Source: a virus. From it: 22,818 nucleotides of DNA. The stretch is from positions 1-22,818 of IMG/VR virus record IMGVR_UViG_3300025645_000492; one strand, written 5' to 3'. The notes beneath the pieces were generated by a model. The model did not search any database and was not told the origin of the DNA. It saw nothing but the letters and a program-made list of their open reading frames with translations. This document shows, piece after piece, positions 4,391 to 16,416 of this stretch (its first letter is position 1; each line of letters opens with the position of its first letter). The position numbers and the translations under genes were made by a program.

Positions 4391-4656
4391 TGAGTGTACT
4401 TACAGTTATGCCTTTAGTGTTGGCAGGTTTATTAAGCAGCCCTGAGTTTGTAATATGCCAACTAGCAAAAAGAGTAAAGATAAGAGAAGAAAAGGTTTGC
4501 ATTTACCGTGGCCCTAATGGTACAATAGGATATCATTATCCTAGTTATAGTTTCAAGGAATGCCCAAAACAATTTATGTGTAGATACACACCTAATGCTA
4601 AGAAAAAAGTAAGTGTTCAAGATATACTTGACGGATTAAAAGATGGTTTTGAATGA
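4390..4656 (+). CDS. small exported Cys-containing protein of unknown function
   Basis: Eighty-eight residues. Residues 1-18 (MSVLTVMPLVLAGLLSSP) look like a signal peptide or anchor without a positive N-region. The rest is basic and contains four cysteines (residues about 23, 37, 58 and 64), which could form two disulfides in the periplasm. No enzyme motif is seen. The start is coupled to the previous gene by TAATG and the stop to the next by ATGA. With the two preceding membrane genes it forms a small block of envelope-directed genes. Confidence 0.6.
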   Translation: MSVLTVMPLVLAGLLSSPEFVICQLAKRVKIREEKVCIYRGPNGTIGYHYPSYSFKECPKQFMCRYTPNAKKKVSVQDILDGLKDGFE

Positions 4657-5072
4657 TAATAGATAATAGTAAAGCTATTGCAGATGGATTACAATTATTT
4701 ATTAACAGTAGTATTTATAACAGATACAGACTTAAAGATATAAATACATATTTAGTTTTACCTGTTAATAATAATAAAATTAGAATTTTTTATCAGCAAG
4801 ATCAACCTATAGGATTAATAACTTGGTGTTGGTTTACAAAAGAAAAAGCAAACAAATTTTTACAATATAAATATGACCCTGTTGAAGAAGACTACAAGAG
4901 TACAAAAATAAATAATAAACAATTATGGTGTTTAGATTTTATTTCTACTAAAGGAAAAGCAAAGCAAATGATAACTTCAGTTAGAAAAGAACATGCAGAA
5001 ATATATGGACATGGTAAAGTACACTGGCGTAGATTTTCTAATCCTACTAAAGAACACAAGAAAGAATTTTAA
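4653..5072 (+). CDS. HlyC-like (RTX toxin-activating) lysine acyltransferase homologue
   Basis: This 139-residue protein aligns by eye with the HlyC/toxin-activating lysine acyltransferase family, GNAT-like enzymes that move a fatty acyl group from acyl-ACP to a lysine of an RTX toxin. Supporting blocks are PIGLITWCWF (52-61; family form P(V/I)..C.WA), a ...EEDYKS... segment (about 79-83), LWCLDFISTKG (91-101; family W.ID.IAPFGD, with the catalytic Asp at D95) and a downstream basic segment. The catalytic His of HlyC (His23) appears to be Tyr22, in a segment otherwise similar (SSIYNRYRL against SPLHRNWPV). The protein is shorter than HlyC (about 170 residues). No RTX toxin is nearby, so a virion or host protein may be the target, or catalysis may be lost. 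The family call is by pattern recognition only. Confidence 0.62.
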   Translation: MIIDNSKAIADGLQLFINSSIYNRYRLKDINTYLVLPVNNNKIRIFYQQDQPIGLITWCWFTKEKANKFLQYKYDPVEEDYKSTKINNKQLWCLDFISTKGKAKQMITSVRKEHAEIYGHGKVHWRRFSNPTKEHKKEF

Positions 5073-5074
5073 TT

Positions 5075-7177
5075 ATGTTGTATAATCCTTTTATGCCTAG
5101 TGTTAAACTTAACAACCGTATTACTTTTGGTGGTGGGGGTGGAGATGCACCTGCACCTGTAGTTGCTCCATCGCCTGTTGCAGTAACACCTCCACCTCCC
5201 CCTCCTCCTGAGTTTACTTCTACTTATCCAGAGCTTGCAAATCAAAGATTTTCTACTGAAGAAGCTAAAACTACTGCTGAAGCTACTATTGATAAACAAA
5301 AAACAGATGCTAGTACTGCTGTTACTGGTGCTACTCAGTATGCTCAAGATGTAGGTAATGATGTTAATACTGCATCTAGAAATGTACAGAGTAAAATTAG
5401 TACTCTTCAACTAGAACTAAATAATCTTCTTACTGCTGATCAAGCTAACCCTCAAATAGCAGCAGCAGTAAAATCTAAACAAGATGAAATAACTAAAGCA
5501 CAAGCAGAGCTATCTAATCTTAGTGGCATTTTGCAAACACAAATGGTTCAAGGTCAAGAAGACCTAATGAGAAATACTCTTATTAACCCAGCTTCTGTAT
5601 TACAAAAAGCACAAGTAACTAATATAAATCCTAATGCTGCTGGTACTAATATAGACCCTAATACAGGAAAAGTACCTGATGTAATTACTCAGTCTTCTAA
5701 AGATGCTACAGCTACATCTATGGCAGGGCCAACAGATATTACTGCTGCAGGTATTGCTGCTAAAACTGCTGTAGATCAAGTAGGTCAAGCCTTAAAAAAT
5801 ATTACTCCTCAACAAGGTACAGTATCAGATGAAGCAACTATTGCGGCAGCAACAATGGACCCTAGCACTACTGCTGTAGGTAATTTAACTGCTGCACAAG
5901 GTACAGCTAATCTTATGAACAATCCTGTTCAAAGAGAAATCCAAGCAGGTGAACTTGTTTCAGGTGCTGCTGATGCAGCTAAAGCTGCAGTGTTTACAGA
6001 ACAAATCCAAGCTGCTACTGCAAGCCCTTCTGATAAAGCTACAGTACAAGGGCAGCTTACTGGACTTATGGAAGACTTTGAGGGTGGAGCCACACCAGCA
6101 TGGGCCGCAGGAGCCATGAGGACAGCCACAGCACAGATGGCTGCACGTGGACTAGGGGCTAGTAGCATGGCAGGACAAGCCATTGTACAGGCCACTATGG
6201 AAGCTGCACTACCTATTGCAGCAGCAGATGCTCAAACTGTTGCAGGGTTTGAAATGCAAAACCTTAGCAATCGTCAAGCTAGGGCAATGCTTGCAGCACA
6301 GCAACGTGCTACATTTATGGGTATGGAATTTGATCAAGACTTCCAAGCAAGAGTTTCTAATGCTGCTAAGATTAGTGACATAGCAAACATGAACTTTACT
6401 GCAGAGCAACAGATTGCACTAGAAAATAGTCGTGCTGCTAACAGTATGAACATGGCTAACTTGACTAACAATCAAGCTATGGTAATGGCAAATGCATCAT
6501 CCATTAGTCAGCTTGAAACTCAAAACTTAACTAATCAACAGCAAGCTGCAGTACAAAATGCTCAAAATTTCTTGGGTATGGATATGGCTAATTTAACTAA
6601 TAGGCAGTCAATAGAAGTATTTAAAGCACAATCGATGCAACAAACTATCTTAACTGATGTTGCAGCAGAGAATGCAGCTAGACAGTTTAATGCTACTAGT
6701 GAGAATCAAACTACTCAGTTCTTAGCTAATTTAAATTCTCAGATTGCACAGTTTAATTCTTCTCAAGCCAATGCTATTTCTCAATTTAATGCAGGACAAA
6801 CTAATGCTAACAGAGAATTTGTAGCTAAGTTACAAGAGCAACGTAATCAATTTAATGCTACTAACTCTTTAGCTATTGCACAAGCTAATGCTGTATGGAG
6901 ACAAAACACTTCTACTTTAAATGCTGCTGCAGATAATGAAGCTAATATGGAGTTTGCTAAAACAACTAATGGACTTACAGCAAAAAGTATTGATGAAGTT
7001 TGGCAAAGAGAACGAGACATTATGGATATGTTTTTTAACTCAGAGGAAAGTGCTAAAGATAGAACACTTAGTCTTATGGTTGCAGATAAAGATGCTGATG
7101 CAGCTAGAATGCAGTTAGAGTATGCAGAAGAAAGAGATAAGACAAGTACACTTATGAAATTCTTTTGGCCTTTTTAA
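5075..7177 (+). CDS. internal virion (ejection) protein with 11/22-residue helical repeats
   Basis: A 700-residue Ala/Gln/Asn-rich protein. After a Gly-rich patch (GGGGG at 19-23) and a poly-proline stretch (PPPPPPP, about 39-45) it is mostly helical. Residues 55-160 are coiled-coil-like. Residues about 330-395 include a GATPAWAAGAMRTATAQMAARG block and a hydrophobic alanine-rich helix. From 396 to 637 the chain divides exactly into eleven 22-residue units, many starting NLTN, and toward the end into 11-residue units ending in Phe (QF). The C-terminus is MKFFWPF, an aromatic patch suited to membrane contact. Length and place, followed by a lysozyme and a 1202-residue protein, suggest a counterpart of T7 gp14/gp15 ejection proteins. 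I know of no sequence homology to those. Translation probably couples to the previous gene (2-base gap). Confidence 0.72.
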   Translation: MLYNPFMPSVKLNNRITFGGGGGDAPAPVVAPSPVAVTPPPPPPPEFTSTYPELANQRFSTEEAKTTAEATIDKQKTDASTAVTGATQYAQDVGNDVNTASRNVQSKISTLQLELNNLLTADQANPQIAAAVKSKQDEITKAQAELSNLSGILQTQMVQGQEDLMRNTLINPASVLQKAQVTNINPNAAGTNIDPNTGKVPDVITQSSKDATATSMAGPTDITAAGIAAKTAVDQVGQALKNITPQQGTVSDEATIAAATMDPSTTAVGNLTAAQGTANLMNNPVQREIQAGELVSGAADAAKAAVFTEQIQAATASPSDKATVQGQLTGLMEDFEGGATPAWAAGAMRTATAQMAARGLGASSMAGQAIVQATMEAALPIAAADAQTVAGFEMQNLSNRQARAMLAAQQRATFMGMEFDQDFQARVSNAAKISDIANMNFTAEQQIALENSRAANSMNMANLTNNQAMVMANASSISQLETQNLTNQQQAAVQNAQNFLGMDMANLTNRQSIEVFKAQSMQQTILTDVAAENAARQFNATSENQTTQFLANLNSQIAQFNSSQANAISQFNAGQTNANREFVAKLQEQRNQFNATNSLAIAQANAVWRQNTSTLNAAADNEANMEFAKTTNGLTAKSIDEVWQRERDIMDMFFNSEESAKDRTLSLMVADKDADAARMQLEYAEERDKTSTLMKFFWPF
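6260..6985 (+). repeat. eleven exact 22-residue (2 x 11) protein repeats
   Basis: Residues 396-637 of the 700-residue protein split without gaps into 22-residue blocks: NLSNRQ..., EFDQDF..., NFTAEQ..., NLTNNQ..., NLTNQQ..., NLTNRQ..., DVAAEN..., LANLNS..., NAGQTN..., NATNSL..., NAAADN.... In the second half each block is two 11-mers, often ending in F (for example NSSQANAISQF, NAGQTNANREF, VAKLQEQRNQF). An 11-residue period equals three helical turns, as in hendecad coiled coils and apolipoprotein-like amphipathic helices. Confidence 0.8.
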
Positions 7178-7190
7178 TTAGGAAAATACA

Positions 7191-7949
7191 ATGGTAGAAC
7201 GAAACAGATCAGGATTTAAATATCGTGGCAACACACAACCTAAATATGAAAGAGGTAGTATTCTTAAAACAGCTAATAGAACTAAAGCTTTTGTAGATAC
7301 TTTACCTAATACTATGTCAACATTTAATAATGCTGTAGATACAGATATGAGAAATAGTATTTTTGATATTATGGAAAAACTACAGAAAGAAGAACAAGTT
7401 ACTCCTGTAACTAGGGCTGATGGGTTTGGTGCTACTGACATGGCAGGTGGTGATTGGGTTAATGTATCTACTAAAGCACTAATGAAGTTTGAAGGTTTTA
7501 GAAGTGAACCTTATGATGACCGTAAAAAAGGTGCAAATAAACCTGTATGGAGAATAGGTTATGGTAGTGATAAGTATATGGAAAGAGGTAAAATTTTTAC
7601 TGTAGATCAAGACACAAGAGTAACTGAAGTTCAAGCTAAACAAGACCTTGACCGTAGAATTAAAACAGATTTTTTACCTATCATTAAAAATAATATAGGT
7701 GACTCTTGGGATGGACTAAGTAATAATACTAAAGGTGCTATTATGTCTATCACTTATAACTATGGTAGAGTGCCTAACAGAATTAAAGACGCAATAAATA
7801 CTGGTGATACAAATAAAATATCTACAGCTATTAGGTCTTTAGCAACAGACGATGAAGGAATTAATAGAGATAGGAGATTAGCTGAAGCAGAACTAGTAAT
7901 GCTTCCTGATTTTAACTCTGATTCATTAATGAAAAGAAGGAATAAATAA
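7191..7949 (+). CDS. GH24-type (T4-like) lysozyme, probably virion-associated
   Basis: This 252-residue protein is predicted to cleave the glycan strand of peptidoglycan. The lysozyme domain starts near residue 93. KFEGFRSEPYDD (99-110) holds the catalytic Glu101, and Asp109/110 lies at the spacing of T4 Asp20. WRIGYG (120-125) matches the family TIGYG strand, and SITYNYG (187-193) matches the conserved helix. The third catalytic residue of T4 lysozyme, Thr26, is Arg at the aligned place (R121). Residues 1-90 form a non-catalytic extension that cytosolic endolysins lack, and there is no signal peptide. Flanked by ejection-type proteins, it is more likely a particle-borne enzyme that opens the wall during entry, but a lysis function cannot be excluded because no other endolysin is visible. 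An AGGAAAA ribosome site precedes the ATG. Confidence 0.78.
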   Translation: MVERNRSGFKYRGNTQPKYERGSILKTANRTKAFVDTLPNTMSTFNNAVDTDMRNSIFDIMEKLQKEEQVTPVTRADGFGATDMAGGDWVNVSTKALMKFEGFRSEPYDDRKKGANKPVWRIGYGSDKYMERGKIFTVDQDTRVTEVQAKQDLDRRIKTDFLPIIKNNIGDSWDGLSNNTKGAIMSITYNYGRVPNRIKDAINTGDTNKISTAIRSLATDDEGINRDRRLAEAELVMLPDFNSDSLMKRRNK

Positions 7950-8480
7950 GTGGCACTAGATAGAGAAATAGACCTACCTCAAAACACAGTGCCTATTCCC
8001 GGACAATCTCTATTAAGAGAACCGGGTAATGCACCCTATGAACGTCCCTCTGAAATACAAGGTAAAGATGCAGTAGAAAAAGTATTAATGGGGTACATGA
8101 ACCATCTCAATGATGCTGAAGTTTTAGATGGTGCTATGGGATTACTTGAGCAAGGTATGAGTGTTGAAACTTTAATTCAAGGTATGTTAAGAGGTGGTGT
8201 TGCTGAAGGTGTACACAGTGTAGATATCAGTCTTATTATTCAGAAAACACTTGAGAATTTTATTATTAATGTTGCTGATGCAGTAGGTATTGATTATGTT
8301 AAAGGTGATGAAAAAGAAGACTTAGATACTTCAGATGCTGAACTTTCTAAAATGGCTAGAGAAGACAGACCTGATAGCCCTGATATGTTTGCACCGATAG
8401 ATGCAATAGAAGAAATAGAAACAGAAGAACCTGTAGAAAAAGATGAGCCTGTACGTCAGGGTCTTATGGCGAGAGGATAG
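7950..8480 (+). CDS. phage protein of unknown function, possible virion component
   Basis: This 176-residue protein starts with GTG directly after the lysozyme stop (zero gap), with an AGAAGG ribosome site inside the lysozyme end. No family is recognised. A proline-rich start (DLPQNTVPIPGQSLLREPGNAPYERP) precedes a helical core (residues 40-120) with regular hydrophobic residues and several Gly-Met pairs. The last 50 residues are very acidic (EIETEEPVEKDEPV) and likely disordered. The position between the lysozyme and the largest protein suggests a virion or assembly part. Confidence 0.7.
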   Translation: MALDREIDLPQNTVPIPGQSLLREPGNAPYERPSEIQGKDAVEKVLMGYMNHLNDAEVLDGAMGLLEQGMSVETLIQGMLRGGVAEGVHSVDISLIIQKTLENFIINVADAVGIDYVKGDEKEDLDTSDAELSKMAREDRPDSPDMFAPIDAIEEIETEEPVEKDEPVRQGLMARG

Positions 8481-8484
8481 TTAG

Positions 8485-9528
8485 ATGGCATTAGGTTTTT
8501 GGGCTGGCGTTAGGCAGTATGATGTTGAAAGAACTGCAGCAGAAAAAGAAAGAAAAGAATTTCTTGCTAATCAGTTACTTAAAACTAAAGAGATAGTTTT
8601 GCCAGAGCTTATTAAAAGAATGGATACCCGAAGAAAAAAAGGTAAAGCTAAACAACAAAGAGTTGATGATGCAACAGGTATAGGATTTACACTACAAACA
8701 GCTACTGCTTTAGAAAGAAGTGGTCAATTGGAAGATGTTCTTACAAGAGTGACAGACTTACGTAAGAATGAAAAACTTAATCCTGAATATATACCTATGT
8801 TAAATGAGTATGTAAATAATAAACTTTCAAATGATGCTGATCGTTTAGCTGCAGTGCAAGAAGGCTTAGGTGGTAACTCTTATATAACAGAAGATGAACA
8901 ACTTCAAGGATTATTAGCTTCTGTTTCTGCTACAGATGAAAGTTCATTTAGTGAAGCTATTAAAAAACTATCTCCTACACAAAATAAAACACTTACAGAT
9001 GTTGACCCTTTTAACTTTGCTCCGGGAAAAGGCCAAACTATTTCAGAGTCAGATAAAAGAGCAATTAAAAATAGATTAACAAATAGTTTAGCAGATGCTC
9101 TTGATATACGTGTAATAGAAACTGGTACAGGTGAAGACATGTACAGATCGTTTGATGACGATAGTGCTAATGCATTAATATCTAAAGTTACAGATAGTAT
9201 TTTAAATTTTGAAACAAGTCTTGACTTTACACTAAGTAGAGATACTTTAGTAGCAGAAGCAGTAGAAGTTATGGAAGCTTTAAGTCCAGCTTTAACCTCT
9301 GAAACAGGTAAACCTTTTGGCACTGCTACAAACCCTCAGTTTGGCACAGAATGGGCAGGACAAAACTTTGCAGAGGCATATAAAAGGAATCTAACTTCTG
9401 ATTATACCTCTCCTTTAAATCCTGTTGATATATGGGGTCCATATATTAATCCAACTACAGTTCCTGTTATGCCACCTCCTCAAGACGGTGGTGAAGAGGA
9501 ACCTATTGACCCACTTAATCCTACATAA
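8485..9528 (+). CDS. phage protein of unknown function in ejection-protein cluster
   Basis: A 347-residue protein with no family I recognise. Residues 1-65 are strongly basic and helical (ERTAAEKERKEFL, KRMDTRRKKGKAKQQR). The middle is acidic and helical. The end, from about residue 305, is proline-rich and probably extended (YTSPLNPVDIWGPYINPTTVPVMPPPQ), closing with an acidic tail. No signal peptide or membrane segment. The ribosome site GAGAGGA lies in the end of the previous gene. Its size and neighbours fit an internal virion protein, but this rests on context. Confidence 0.72.
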   Translation: MALGFWAGVRQYDVERTAAEKERKEFLANQLLKTKEIVLPELIKRMDTRRKKGKAKQQRVDDATGIGFTLQTATALERSGQLEDVLTRVTDLRKNEKLNPEYIPMLNEYVNNKLSNDADRLAAVQEGLGGNSYITEDEQLQGLLASVSATDESSFSEAIKKLSPTQNKTLTDVDPFNFAPGKGQTISESDKRAIKNRLTNSLADALDIRVIETGTGEDMYRSFDDDSANALISKVTDSILNFETSLDFTLSRDTLVAEAVEVMEALSPALTSETGKPFGTATNPQFGTEWAGQNFAEAYKRNLTSDYTSPLNPVDIWGPYINPTTVPVMPPPQDGGEEEPIDPLNPT

Positions 9529-9550: not shown

Positions 9551-12500
9551 ATGGCACAGTACGTAGATGCTGCACAAGATAACTACTTTATGGATTTAGT
9601 TGAAGACGAAACTTTTCAATCTGATCTTAAAAGTTTTTTTACTGGTGGTAGGTATAACTATTCACCAGAAAAAATAAAAAAGTTAGGTGTTGAAGGATTA
9701 GCTGATAACTTTGTAGAGCATATGCGGTTTCAAAACATGAATGAAACCACAGCAGTAAAAGATTTATTGTATGTAAAAAGGGATTATAGTACGCCTAAAA
9801 ACCAACAAGACCCTGAGATTATTAAAAGAGATAATAAATTTAACGAAGGTAAACAAGCTTTTGGTAGATTAATGTCAGCTTATGATATTAGTGAAGGTGG
9901 TGGTACTGGGTGGTTTGAAGGTGCATGGGATTATGGAAGGGCTTTTGCAAGCTCCCCTTCTACATTAACTACAGTAGGTACAATGGGCTTTGGTATCGGC
10001 ACTAAGATAGCTGCTCAATTCTCTAAGAAAGCTACACAACTAGCTATACGTGCTGAAATATCTCGTCAACTACGTAAAGGTGTGTCAGGTACTGCAATAA
10101 AAGAAACACTTAAAAAGAACTTAGGTACTGAAGCTCTTAAAGATGGAGTTAAAGCATTTGCTTTTGAAGGTACTATGGGTGCTGGTGCTTCTTATGCAGA
10201 GAATGAAACAAGGGAAGAAGTAGTAGAAGGTTATGAGTATGGTGCAGGAGATATTATTATAGATGCTACTATAGATGGCACACTTGGTGCATCAGTAGGT
10301 TCTTTCTTTGGATTTCTTGATAATAAATCTAACAATAGGGCCATTGACCTTATGTACGATAGTGTAAAGGATGGAGAAAACACAAGAAAGATAGCATTAG
10401 AAGCAGCAAATAAAACTATTTCAAAAGCTAAACCTGATTTGTTGTCTGAGTCTATTGATGATATAGTTCAAGTAGCATCACTATTTAAAGCTAAAGAACA
10501 AGGGGTTAAGCTAGAAAAACTAGATGAAGATTTAGTTGCACTAGGTGATGGTCTAAGAAGCCTTGTCCTTTCATCTGAAATTAATCAAGAGCTAACAACA
10601 TCATTAAGTTTAGATACTATTAAAGGTGTAGTGGGTGCATCTCTTGATATTAAAAAATCATTAAAGATGAAACCCGGAGAAAGAATTTCTACTGTATTAG
10701 CTAGAGCTATTGCTGATGGTAAGATAGATACTCCAGCCCTTGAAACAATTAAAAATAAATATAATATTAGTAATGAACAATTCTCTTATATCTTTTTGTC
10801 TGACTTGTCACGTGCTGGTAAAGTCTTGCAATCAGGGTCAGCAATAAAACAAGCATTACTAAACATGGATGTGTTATCTAAAGCTAATGTATCTAGTATT
10901 ACTGATATTGAAGCAGAAGAAATATTTAAAACTGCTGGTGGAAAAGTAGCAGGTACTCCTAAGAAACCTAACATAGGAACTAAAATTGTTGAAGGGGCTG
11001 TCGAGGGTGCTAGACAAGCAGACTCTTTACGTATTGCCTTTATGACCTCACAGTTAGGTACTACTGCTGCTAATGTAGGCACAGGTGTTTTTAATTTAAC
11101 AGTAGATATCTCTGATCAATTCTGGAAAAATGTACTTAGAAGTACTGTCGGGGAAACTATGGCTGATGGCTCTGTAAGGAGAGGTTGGGTTAAAGGTACA
11201 ACATCTATTCTAGGTGGTATGTCTTTTAGTAAGGCAGAGTCTATAGCTTTAAAAGGTTTGTTACAAGAAGAAGCACCACTAGCATTTCGTGATTTGTTTT
11301 ATGAAACAACTAGGTCAATGGACTTTGCTAATGCATCAAGTACTTTACCTAAAATAGGTAAGTTTTTTAACACGTTAAATATTGCAACTGATTCTGTATT
11401 TAAAGAAGCAGCACTGTATGGTTCTTTAGATCGTAAGCTAAGGGAACAAGGTAGTAGTCTAGGAAAGTTTTTAACTGCACGAAAAGATAATGGTGCACCT
11501 ATGAGACTAGAAGATTTACCTGAAGATACATTAGCCTTTGCAATAAACGAAGCTAAACGATTTACTTTCCAAAAAGATTTTAAGAAAGACACTTCTTTGT
11601 TTGGTGCTGGTGCAAGGAACTTGCAAAAGCTACACCATAAATACCCCTTCCTTATTTCTGTTGGACTAGACACACCCTTTCCACGATACATAGCAAATCA
11701 TTTAGAGTATGCTAATGACTATAGCTTTATAGGTACTGCAACAGGTGGTATGAAAAAGCTTGATGAAATGATAGGGGGTTTTAATAACCCTGACTATGAG
11801 GGTATAGGTGGAGACAAGTCAAAGCTCTTTGGTGGTGATCCTTTTAAAACAAACTTAGATCGTGGTGCAAGGCAGCTTACAGGTGCTATGATGGTCATGG
11901 GTGCTACTGCTTATGCAGCAGAAAAAGAAGGTATGATTGACTTTGATAGACTAGTTTCAGATGATGGTGGTGAGACTGATCTTAGTCGTATGGCTGGGCC
12001 TTTTGCTATCAATCTCCTAACAGGTGATTTAATATATAGGTACCTGGCTGGACTACCTTTAAATTCTAAAGCTTCTCTTGATACAGTTAGAGAAATATTA
12101 GGCGGTGTACCTGATTTAAGTAAAGGTGCTTTTACTTTTGAATTTGAATTGATAAAAAATATTAGTGACTCCTATAAACAAGGAGAAATGTCTGAAGGTT
12201 TAGAAAAACAATTAGGTAATATAGTTGCTACCTTTAGCTACCCACAAACATTTGCAAAAGATATCTATGGTCAGTTTGAATTTAAAGCAGCAGGTAGTCC
12301 TTACACAAGAGATTTAATGTTAGAAGGTGAAGAAGGTGGTGTATCAAACTATGGAGAAAGAAACTATTTAGAAGATATAATAGGAAGTAACGTATTTAAA
12401 AACCAAGCCTCAAGATTTTTAATAGACTTACCTATCTTTAGTTATACACCTTCTTATTCAAGAGGAGAGAAAAAAGGATTTGATTTTAAAAGGTGGACAC

Positions 12501-13159
12501 CCTTTAATGAAAACCCTGTAGGTTCTTGGAACCCAATAACTAAATCTTTTGGTGCAGTACAAGAACCACCAAGTTCTACAATACAAAAAGAAATGACATT
12601 GTTAGGTCTTAAAGGTTGGAAGACTTATAGAAGAAATAAAAAAGATGTAAACCCAATGGTTGCTTATCTTGCAGAGTATACAATGTCTCAAACTATGTCA
12701 CCTAAATGGGATGTATGGAAAAAAAGTTTTGATTTAAGTACAACAATGCCTATTTACCCACCGGGTACTACGTATGATAGCCTAGGTGATAATTACGAAA
12801 ATAAAAGATTACTCTTAGAAGGTTTTATTGAAAGTCAAATTGCAATCAATGTTGATGCTGCAAGATCAAGACTTGATAAAGTTTCATCAGACCCAAAGAC
12901 ACGTAATAAATATGCTGGGTATATTAGAAATATATATGCTTTAAAGAAACATGAATTTCAGGCAGATGGTAAAGACTTAGATCAAGTGCTTAGAGCTTTC
13001 CCTGAAAAGTTTAAAGGTTTTGATAATGCTAAAGACTATATAGAAAATTCTGGCAGTGTTGCAGAAGAACTAAATAGGCGTCAACAAATTCTAGACTATG
13101 TAACTAAGTATGTTCTTGATAGTGATCTTGGCCTCAAGAAAGAAGCCAAGAAATTTTAA
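9551..13159 (+). CDS. large internal virion protein (T7 gp16-like in position and size)
   Basis: At 1202 residues this is the largest gene and the last of the plus-strand run, in the order seen for T7 ejection proteins (gp16 has 1318). Residues 1-110 are charged and helical. Residues 115-255 are Gly/Ala-rich with hydrophobic stretches (TLTTVGTMGFGIGTKIAAQ, GAGDIIIDATIDGTLGASVGS), separated by a basic helix and an AENETREEVVEGYEYG segment. Another hydrophobic stretch (TGAMMVMGATAYAAE) lies near residue 780. Such membrane-active segments suit a protein that enters the envelope during DNA delivery. I see no transglycosylase motif like that of T7 gp16; the separate lysozyme at 7191 may supply it. 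The ribosome site is AGAGGAAA. Its stop codon overlaps the stop of the opposing gene. Confidence 0.75.
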   Translation: MAQYVDAAQDNYFMDLVEDETFQSDLKSFFTGGRYNYSPEKIKKLGVEGLADNFVEHMRFQNMNETTAVKDLLYVKRDYSTPKNQQDPEIIKRDNKFNEGKQAFGRLMSAYDISEGGGTGWFEGAWDYGRAFASSPSTLTTVGTMGFGIGTKIAAQFSKKATQLAIRAEISRQLRKGVSGTAIKETLKKNLGTEALKDGVKAFAFEGTMGAGASYAENETREEVVEGYEYGAGDIIIDATIDGTLGASVGSFFGFLDNKSNNRAIDLMYDSVKDGENTRKIALEAANKTISKAKPDLLSESIDDIVQVASLFKAKEQGVKLEKLDEDLVALGDGLRSLVLSSEINQELTTSLSLDTIKGVVGASLDIKKSLKMKPGERISTVLARAIADGKIDTPALETIKNKYNISNEQFSYIFLSDLSRAGKVLQSGSAIKQALLNMDVLSKANVSSITDIEAEEIFKTAGGKVAGTPKKPNIGTKIVEGAVEGARQADSLRIAFMTSQLGTTAANVGTGVFNLTVDISDQFWKNVLRSTVGETMADGSVRRGWVKGTTSILGGMSFSKAESIALKGLLQEEAPLAFRDLFYETTRSMDFANASSTLPKIGKFFNTLNIATDSVFKEAALYGSLDRKLREQGSSLGKFLTARKDNGAPMRLEDLPEDTLAFAINEAKRFTFQKDFKKDTSLFGAGARNLQKLHHKYPFLISVGLDTPFPRYIANHLEYANDYSFIGTATGGMKKLDEMIGGFNNPDYEGIGGDKSKLFGGDPFKTNLDRGARQLTGAMMVMGATAYAAEKEGMIDFDRLVSDDGGETDLSRMAGPFAINLLTGDLIYRYLAGLPLNSKASLDTVREILGGVPDLSKGAFTFEFELIKNISDSYKQGEMSEGLEKQLGNIVATFSYPQTFAKDIYGQFEFKAAGSPYTRDLMLEGEEGGVSNYGERNYLEDIIGSNVFKNQASRFLIDLPIFSYTPSYSRGEKKGFDFKRWTPFNENPVGSWNPITKSFGAVQEPPSSTIQKEMTLLGLKGWKTYRRNKKDVNPMVAYLAEYTMSQTMSPKWDVWKKSFDLSTTMPIYPPGTTYDSLGDNYENKRLLLEGFIESQIAINVDAARSRLDKVSSDPKTRNKYAGYIRNIYALKKHEFQADGKDLDQVLRAFPEKFKGFDNAKDYIENSGSVAEELNRRQQILDYVTKYVLDSDLGLKKEAKKF
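13127..13157 (+). terminator. possible rho-independent terminator inside the last plus-strand gene
   Basis: CTTGGC (13127-13132) and GCCAAG (13145-13150) can pair as a 6-bp stem with a 12-base loop, followed by AAATTTT. It lies in the last codons of the 1202-residue gene. The stem is short and the T-run is only four bases, so termination would be weak. On the minus strand no T-run follows. Confidence 0.35.
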
Positions 13160-14514: not shown

Positions 14515-16416
14515 CTAGGTTATGTCTACCATTTCACATACATCACCAGTACATGCCATAGTCTGCATACCACTAGTGTTATCTGTCTGCTCGTAAGTAG
14601 ATAGTTTAGTCCAATCAATTTTAATAGGTGATTTATCTACCATATCATAGAAATTTTCTTTTGTGCATTCTTGATATGGTGCTTGCTGATAAGTGTGTTC
14701 ATTAAAAGGTAGGAAAGATACACCAGACATTTCATCAAAGTGTTTAAATACAAAGGCTCCTACCTCTAACCATTCATCTGCCTTTACATTAATAGTTACA
14801 CTAGGCTTATGCTCACACCAATGACGTTGATATACCAGCCACATTTCTAGCTGTTGTATTGCTGTCATGTCAGCCGTATGTACTGCACCAATAGGTGACT
14901 GCATAGGAAAGCTAAACACTGTAGTAGCATCAGGCTTCATTACATCAGGCTCACTAGGAATACCTTGATCAATCATAAACTGTGTTAGTGGGTCTTTATT
15001 ATCTCCACGCACAGTACGGATATAATAGGGACTGTGACGAGCATGAATCCCAGAAGATGAGTCAACCAGTTGGGAAACTGTTCCACTTGGCTTGTTGCAA
15101 GTAATAGCAGTGCTATGAGGGATACCAAGACGGTCAGCCCACTCAGCATTAGTAGAAATAGCCACATTTTTTAGATGCTCCAATGTTTTAGACAGCCCTT
15201 TGTTTTCTAGGGTCATTAGTTTGTTATCCATTACCCCTGTGAGTGACACACCAAGCAGACGTTCTGCTTCTGTATTGGTGTTCCACACTTTTCGCAAGTA
15301 TGGGAAGTGTGTGTATGTAGATTGTATTGTTCCAAGTACAGTTGCAAGACGGACTTTTCTTGCAAGGTCTTCCAGACTATCGTTAGCACGGATGACAACT
15401 TCCGTAAGGTTACAGAACTGATTTGGCCTAAGAATGATTTCCGAACATGGGTTTGTTCCAAACTCGTAGCAAGTCTCCCGTCTTCCATTTTTGGATGCTT
15501 GTTTAACCGAAGCCTCTCTATTAAATATACCACGTTCACCACTCCCACTTTCCATAAGGGCTGTCCACTCACGCATGAATGCCATACTATCAGGTTTTTC
15601 TGTATAAGAAACTGAGTTATTAGCTAAGGCTCTATGCCCTGCGTTCTCCCACCAGTTACCTGACTTGGCATGACGCATACGATCATCAGATAGATTAGAT
15701 AAACTAATCATAGCACTGCGTCTGACACCACCTACCACTACTACCTCACCAATCTTACACATAAGATCATGACACTCTAGGCTAGATAACTTACGTCCTT
15801 CTGCTTGTCGAAAGGTAGTAACAGCAAAGTTAAACAAATCAATCAATGGTGCTGGGCCTGATGCCCTACCACCAAATGTCTTTAGTCTTGCACCTGCTGG
15901 CCTGACTTTAGATACATCCCACTTAGGGATTTCACCAGCCCATAGGAGTGCCAATACTTGTCTAAGACCTTTAGCCCATCCTTCCTTGCTATCCTTGATG
16001 ACAACAGTCGTTTCAGACTCGAAAAGACTAGGAACATCAGGGAGTTTAGTGATGAACTGTCTCTCAACACTGAAACCAACCCCCGTCCCACAAAGGAGGA
16101 TGAACATAGCCTCATCGAAAGACTTAGGATCATCTACGGGTAGATAGCTACAGTTATACATACAAGTATTGTCACGATCTGCAGCTTTACCTGCTGTCAT
16201 CATTGACCTCATACTGGGCATAACCTCAAGGCTAAGTATAGCATCCCGCATTTCGTCTAGGTCAACAGGCTTAAGCCATTTCTTAGCTATGTTTTGCAGG
16301 TATCGTTCTACTGTTTCTCCCCATGTTTCTCTACGTCCTTCATCATCTAACCATCTGGCATAACGACTAGTAGCAATAAAAGTTTGATAGTCTGTTGGTA
16401 AATAATTACTATTCAT
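14515..16416 (-). CDS. nrdJ: class II adenosylcobalamin-dependent ribonucleotide reductase
   Basis: This 633-residue enzyme reduces ribonucleotides to deoxyribonucleotides for phage DNA synthesis, using coenzyme B12 to make the radical. It is of the monomeric type of Lactobacillus leichmannii RTPR. The catalytic segment NPCSE (322-326) carries the thiyl Cys324. Cys335 follows at the same 11-residue spacing as RTPR Cys408/Cys419. Cys89 (in CMYNCSYL) fits the first redox cysteine, and Cys622/Cys627 near the C-terminus keep the 5-residue spacing of the RTPR swinging-arm pair. NKPSGTVSQLVDSSSGIHARHSPYYIRTVR (441-470, key residues P443, S444, G445, H458) is also typical. It is shorter than RTPR (about 739), mainly missing N-terminal and insert regions. 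The start overlaps the stop of mazG (ATGA), so the two are translationally coupled. It works without oxygen limitation or a second subunit. Confidence 0.95.
   Translation of the reverse strand: MNSNYLPTDYQTFIATSRYARWLDDEGRRETWGETVERYLQNIAKKWLKPVDLDEMRDAILSLEVMPSMRSMMTAGKAADRDNTCMYNCSYLPVDDPKSFDEAMFILLCGTGVGFSVERQFITKLPDVPSLFESETTVVIKDSKEGWAKGLRQVLALLWAGEIPKWDVSKVRPAGARLKTFGGRASGPAPLIDLFNFAVTTFRQAEGRKLSSLECHDLMCKIGEVVVVGGVRRSAMISLSNLSDDRMRHAKSGNWWENAGHRALANNSVSYTEKPDSMAFMREWTALMESGSGERGIFNREASVKQASKNGRRETCYEFGTNPCSEIILRPNQFCNLTEVVIRANDSLEDLARKVRLATVLGTIQSTYTHFPYLRKVWNTNTEAERLLGVSLTGVMDNKLMTLENKGLSKTLEHLKNVAISTNAEWADRLGIPHSTAITCNKPSGTVSQLVDSSSGIHARHSPYYIRTVRGDNKDPLTQFMIDQGIPSEPDVMKPDATTVFSFPMQSPIGAVHTADMTAIQQLEMWLVYQRHWCEHKPSVTINVKADEWLEVGAFVFKHFDEMSGVSFLPFNEHTYQQAPYQECTKENFYDMVDKSPIKIDWTKLSTYEQTDNTSGMQTMACTGDVCEMVDIT

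Follow-up and report, generated by a model that had tools for sequence, protein, structure and literature searches.

The 11-residue repeats of apolipoproteins, LEA proteins and perilipins are charged, one-faced lipid-binding helices. Peptidase_S74 is a domain of trimeric fibres and acts as an intramolecular chaperone. Among phage proteins, hendecads and heptads together form the decameric tube of the phiX174 DNA-delivery protein H, and most of the residues facing its lumen are Asn, Gln and Arg (PMC7354561). In the mature core of T7, gp14 is wrapped around the portal barrel, and it changes its fold when ejected (PMC11784390). The protein described here has relatives in HMO-2011-type phages, which are reported to be a dominant and broadly distributed group of marine viruses (PMC9038755).

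Two repeat classes in one 11-residue register

The window, the whole 22,818-nucleotide stretch of viral DNA that was analysed, encodes on its plus strand a 700-residue protein (positions 5075–7177) composed of a variable N-terminus, a conserved domain, a repeat array and a charged C-terminal tail. Residues 1–264 (5075–5866) are rich in Pro, Thr and Gly and very unlike among relatives in both length and sequence. In an alignment of 76 relatives this part has low occupancy and low conservation, and no insertion or deletion falls across residues 298–690. The same alignment places a conserved domain, WA..GA...(A)ARG.GASS...A......ALPIA..DA, at residues 333–387 (6071–6235), before the array.

The array covers residues 396–637, which correspond exactly to positions 6260–6985, and divides into eleven 22-residue blocks with zero insertions, as a preliminary description of this DNA had it. 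Six of the units had been said to begin with N(L/F)(T/S) or similar; five do so exactly (residues 396, 440, 462, 484 and 506), but the unit at 418 starts with EFD. Two repeat classes share the register. Six 22-residue units with the consensus N-L-[ST]-N-x-Q-Q-x-A-h-x-N-A-Q-(x)7-A/M fill residues 396–527 (6260–6655), and ten 11-residue units with the consensus N-A-x-x-x-N-x-x-x-Q-F fill residues 528–637 (6656–6985) with a hendecad (11/3) hydrophobic stripe. The Phe endings ascribed to the later 11-mers are found at residues 538, 549, 560, 571, 582 and 593. The 11-residue register runs on towards residue ~670, within the charged helical tail (residues 638–700, 6986–7174), in which W643 and R663 are conserved; both are invariant in a 10-sequence alignment starting at residue 265 (there W379 and R399). 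Invariant residues also occur within the array, whose units at present share about one-fifth identical residues with one another.

BLOSUM62 self-similarity across residues 396–637 was compared with 2000 shuffles of the sequence. Lags 11, 22, 33 and 44 each beat every shuffle (z = 5.3, 7.2, 5.6 and 7.1, respectively), and the 11- and 22-residue period noted from the letters is thus real. Lag 7 fell under the shuffle mean, indicating that there is no heptad in this region. In residues 1–395 the same test gave no lag-22 signal and a weakly raised lag 11 (z = 4.2).

The composition of the array is unusual. Arrays of the relatives contain one Pro and zero Cys in 60,359 residues, with Gly at 1.2%, whereas Pro makes up 6.4% of the N-terminal parts. 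Asn and Gln together account for 31% of the relatives' arrays and for 28.5% of the window array, compared to 8–10% in four other proteins of the window. Net charge of the array is near zero. The exclusion of Pro supports a helix, and AlphaFold likewise predicts the array to be helical. A single-sequence model (pLDDT 49.6) was replaced by a model of residues 265–700 built with 62 relatives, which has helices at 365–414, 421–505 and 508–697 and a mean pLDDT of 60. Only residues 534–695 are predicted fairly confidently (pLDDT ~67–87, compared to 45–58 before them). No globular fold appears in the prediction, in agreement with the helical, non-globular region first proposed.

The two halves of the array differ in their hydrophobic pattern. 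An amphipathic hendecad had been expected throughout, and Fourier analysis bears this out for residues 528–637, which carry a clear 11/3 hydrophobic stripe (p < 0.0005), but not for residues 396–505, where hydrophobicity has no 11/3 harmonic (p = 0.29) and its power is concentrated at 11/4. Over residues 396–637 as a whole, net 11/3 power of hydrophobicity is zero. Since residues 396–505 lack the stripe, the proposal of one amphipathic helix lying on a membrane is unsupported; a simple scan of the repeat protein found no hydrophobic segment, and the Asn and Gln residues are abundant and evenly distributed. The amides seem to be spread around the helix in the first half of the array, and its 11/4 pattern would agree with helices that interlock through Asn/Gln contacts on either side. 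The apolipoprotein, LEA and perilipin repeats also have 11- and 22-residue units. Unlike those charged helices, the array here is near-neutral, and its residues 396–505 are without 11/3 amphipathy.

Array length changes in whole units

Three small HMMs were used as anchors for measuring the array in relatives: anchor A is the conserved domain at residues 333–387, anchor C lies around residue 537, and anchor D is the NAxWR region at the array end. All three were found in 315 relatives, representing 261 distinct sequences and 16 architectures. The A-to-C spacings are 24, 46, 68, 90, 123, 134, 156, 200, 310 and 420 residues, all of them 2 mod 11 and nine of the ten 2 mod 22. The C-to-D spacings are 57, 68, 79, 90, 101, 112 and 189, again all 2 mod 11. 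Among relatives, therefore, the 22-mer part changes in steps of 22 residues, with one case of 11, and the 11-mer part in steps of 11. The full A-to-D distance takes 13 values between 114 and 510 residues, which fall into a single class mod 11 in every distinct relative (261/261). If lengths were arbitrary, the chance of 13 of them sharing one class would be ~3e-13. Lengths outside the array (138 N-terminal and 42 C-terminal) spread evenly over the mod-11 classes. With this rule, the repeat array of the preliminary description is confirmed and stronger than first stated.

As anchor C is itself within the array, where it might be displaced by one unit, we also measured the distance between two fixed motifs, PIA and WR, located outside the array or at its end. 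It takes 12 lengths from 141 to 537 residues, all 9 mod 11 (257 sequences), and mis-registration of the anchors was rejected as the source of the quantisation. A 44-residue hairpin repeat of two units was likewise rejected, as both odd and even counts of 22-mers occur. The array had also been suggested to span the envelope. An array length that the host dictates, as a ruler of its envelope, is disfavoured by two Pelagibacter phages, HTVC033P and HTVC115P, in which the same A and D anchors are 136 and 290 residues apart.

If the array is α-helical, each 11-residue unit would make three helical turns and measure ~16.5 Å. The whole-unit steps may then arise because 11 residues would be a whole number of turns, so that gain or loss of a unit would leave the helix faces unshifted. 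A continuous helical rod or tube would be expected to vary in this way. As a straight α-helix, 114 to 510 residues between the anchors would extend ~17 to 76 nm. The steps could also partly reflect tandem-repeat mutation. Whole-unit change is the outcome of tandem duplication, but the units are now only about one-fifth identical and other indel sizes have not been tolerated; none occur in arrays that have diverged to ~30–35% identity. The length rule is unusually clean and yields a falsifiable prediction, namely a continuous rod with a 16.5 Å repeat and a length given by the number of units.

Three arrays are extreme (L324, L325 and L345). The longest, L324 on contig JAAXIF010000071.1, has more than 20 consecutive 22-residue blocks, and L345 contains a long run of N-x-x-x-x-N-x-x-x-x-F 11-mers.

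Relatives and neighbouring genes

Searches with tblastn found 26 phage records related to the repeat protein, including HMO-2011 and Roseobacter CRP, Pelagibacter, Rhizobium, Sinorhizobium (among them phiM6), Vibrio CHOED, Aeromonas and Pseudoalteromonas phages. Where annotated at all, the features under these matches are called 'hypothetical protein'. Scans of IMG/VR add hundreds of relatives, and a genome collection adds 15 further contigs, mostly from metagenome bins, which are probably phage contigs. Neither the repeat nor the family matches anything in Pfam, PHROGs, NCBIfam or PDB sequences. Foldseek found nothing better than E 2.6 in the PDB, where the matches are trivial long helices, and only the protein's own relatives stand out among viral predicted structures. 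We found no description of the repeat or family in the open-access literature, in line with the preliminary description, to which the repeat was unfamiliar from ejection proteins, and the same literature yielded no proteomic (mass-spectrometry) evidence for the protein in the particle. This large protein is thus present in every relative examined, yet it is merely 'hypothetical' and has no Pfam, PHROGs or NCBIfam family. The homologues of CRP-3 and CRP-738 (L086, L089) and one other sequence (L341) end in a Gly-rich stretch and a Peptidase_S74 domain or motif.

The neighbourhood of the repeat gene is conserved in part. As originally reported, the repeat gene is closely followed by a lysozyme gene and, further on, by the gene of a gp16-sized protein. 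The lysozyme-domain protein (252 residues, 7191–7949, plus strand; Pfam PF00959, E = 1.5e-9; PHROG endolysin) has relatives in only 7 of 206 loci searched, all of them close relatives. Gene B (176 residues, 7950–8480, plus strand) is the conserved partner, and its relatives follow the repeat gene in 168 loci and in 9/9 reference phages. Gene C (347 residues, 8485–9528, plus strand) is fast-evolving, and its counterparts at the same position have 365–928 residues. Gene D (1202 residues, 9551–13159, plus strand) belongs to no known family and is the last gene of its strand. An iterated profile found gene D in 94 loci, with HMO-2011 (E = 1.9e-228) and HTVC033P (8e-68) among them, and large genes occupy this last position in other reference phages too. 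A block of repeat protein, B (~175 residues), C and D (~820–1900 residues) recurs in distant phages, with sizes resembling those of T7 14-15-16 and P22 7-20-16.

This resemblance does not extend to sequence. HMMs of T7 gp14 and P22 gp7 (PF24072, PF25688) and the PHROGs of T7 gp15 and P22 gp16 had no match in the window or in the genomes of nine relatives, and P22 and T7 as positive controls matched the HMMs. No member of the block formed by the repeat, lysozyme, B, C and D genes falls in any known ejection family. Kinship of the repeat protein with P22 gp7, raised by a G-L-G-S-T motif matched by eye, was rejected when comparison with a 9-sequence gp7 profile proved not significant, as was kinship with T7 gp14 (hhalign P 0.12–0.25 for the gp7 and gp14 comparisons). 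A Gly-zipper C-terminus as in P22 gp7 was also rejected; its loose pattern occurs in only 44 of 200 relatives. The kinship with T7-like ejection proteins implied at the outset is thus not borne out. Like T7 gp14 and P22 gp7, the repeat protein is helical, is encoded beside gp15- and gp16-sized genes, and by eye has a helix-G-x-x-S-S/T-helix motif before a long helix. Unlike here, however, P22 gp7, gp20 and gp16 have no 11-residue array. The order and sizes fit a gene before gp15- and gp16-like genes, but these downstream genes match no ejection family, and the gp14-sized member here is gene B, which intervenes between the repeat gene and genes C and D.

Candidate roles of the array

Our best explanation, which we hold tentatively, is that the repeat protein forms a rod or tube in the virion. 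Each chain would begin with an N-terminus that is variable and probably flexible, followed by a small conserved domain and one long, proline-free helical array, and several chains would pack alongside one another as a helical tube or bundle for DNA delivery, like phiX174 H. We infer the virion location from the position of the gene, and the oligomer and the delivery role would follow from this model. A tube for DNA delivery appears most likely because of where the gene lies, at the end of the structural operon beside a lysozyme gene and three genes with the sizes of gp14, gp15 and gp16, and because of a composition rich in Asn and Gln, nearly neutral and free of Pro. As no block member matches a known ejection family, the case for a role in ejection is made by position, size and composition together with the helical character.

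Comparison to the tube of phiX174 H (residues 151–271) shows a similar Pro-free, Asn/Gln-rich helix with 11-residue units; Asn and Gln make up 25.6% of the H tube and 31% of the arrays here. The two proteins have no sequence similarity (hhalign P 0.24) and belong to different virus realms. H also has a single tube segment of ~120 residues, three hendecads followed by heptads, whereas up to 510 residues separate the anchors here, all in 11-residue steps. Moreover, H is a tube, whereas the repeat protein is known here from its sequence and a predicted helix. Against a tube stand this lack of sequence relation to H or to the tested ejection proteins, the Peptidase_S74 domain in a few relatives, the independence of length from host, and a first half without an 11/3 stripe and with pLDDT of 45–58. 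If such a tube does exist, it would be the second solution of this type, similar to phiX174 H but unrelated to it, and the 13 natural lengths would be ready material for asking whether conduit length matters.

A trimeric helical rod could instead stand outside the particle or plug the tail, as a fibre or needle. A chaperone domain would mature its C-terminus in some relatives, and its length would vary by whole units, as happens in other fibrous proteins of phages. The CRP-3 and CRP-738 homologues have Peptidase_S74 above the Pfam cut-off at the C-terminus, as in S74-tailed phage fibres, and tail-fibre-like genes upstream and variable N-termini also agree with a fibre. However, the C-terminal SDxxLKxN(I/V) motif occurs in only 3 of 261 relatives, two of them being those confirmed by Pfam; it is absent from the other 258, and Pfam finds no S74 in the window protein. 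The strikingly Asn/Gln-rich array without a heptad and the constant neighbour B, which precedes C and D, also speak against a fibre, and we consider it unlikely. We judge improbable, too, an internal core or scaffold-like protein whose long helices bind the portal barrel, packaged DNA or neighbouring core proteins, with no channel. Genomic position, helical character and the known behaviour of T7 gp14 at the portal favour such a protein, and Asn/Gln side chains are able to bind DNA, but there is no sequence relation to gp14, and the up to 510 residues between anchors far exceed its length.

The regularity might also be no more than a trace of how tandem repeats mutate, in an Asn/Gln-rich linker that is disordered and has no rigid structure. 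Low AlphaFold confidence in residues 365–530, the low-complexity character and the missing 11/3 power in residues 396–505 point in this direction. The near-complete exclusion of Pro, the low Gly content, the lack of indels of other sizes at ~30–35% identity, the invariant residues within the array and the higher helix confidence of residues 534–695 all argue against a linker, which is very unlikely.

A different lead comes from the adjacent gene. Ending just before the repeat gene, a gene for 139 residues (4653–5072, plus strand) encodes a protein like the HlyC-type lysine acyltransferases of RTX toxins (Pfam PF02794, E = 2.8e-12, above the cut-off). Of the 43 loci with both genes, 41 have the two side by side, the acyltransferase gene being upstream in 13 and downstream in 28, and these loci belong to two separate lineages; in the HTVC115P group it is directly downstream. 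This adjacency is a good lead for a putatively modified virion protein. The repeat protein might then be a substrate or partner of the enzyme, fatty-acylated and attached to the host membrane, and the array would serve as a spacer. Among the 315 loci where the repeat gene is complete, an acyltransferase gene was detected in only 43 (their flanks are in part truncated), no lysine specific to the acyltransferase-bearing group stood out, and the encoded protein matched no solved acyltransferase structure at E ≤ 0.01, so that we give this explanation only a slight chance. Returning to the DNA-delivery tube, it is a decidedly speculative idea, and an unlikely one, that a family of dsDNA marine phages came independently to a helical version that is modular and lined by amides, built of 11-residue units with their turns in register and evolving in length by discrete steps, paired in some lineages with an HlyC-type acyltransferase that would lipidate a virion protein.

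Upstream of the acyltransferase gene lie small ORFs and two fibre-like proteins (positions 1–2522). Right after the fibre gene, at 2523–2551 on the plus strand, is a perfect 12/12 sigma-70 consensus (TTGACA-17-TATAAT), so that the block from 2580 on, including the repeat gene, may be transcribed as a separate unit. Past gene D, genes lie on the opposite strand. Among them, a large ORF (14515–16416, minus strand) matches, by position only, the adenosylcobalamin-dependent ribonucleotide reductase of HMO-2011.
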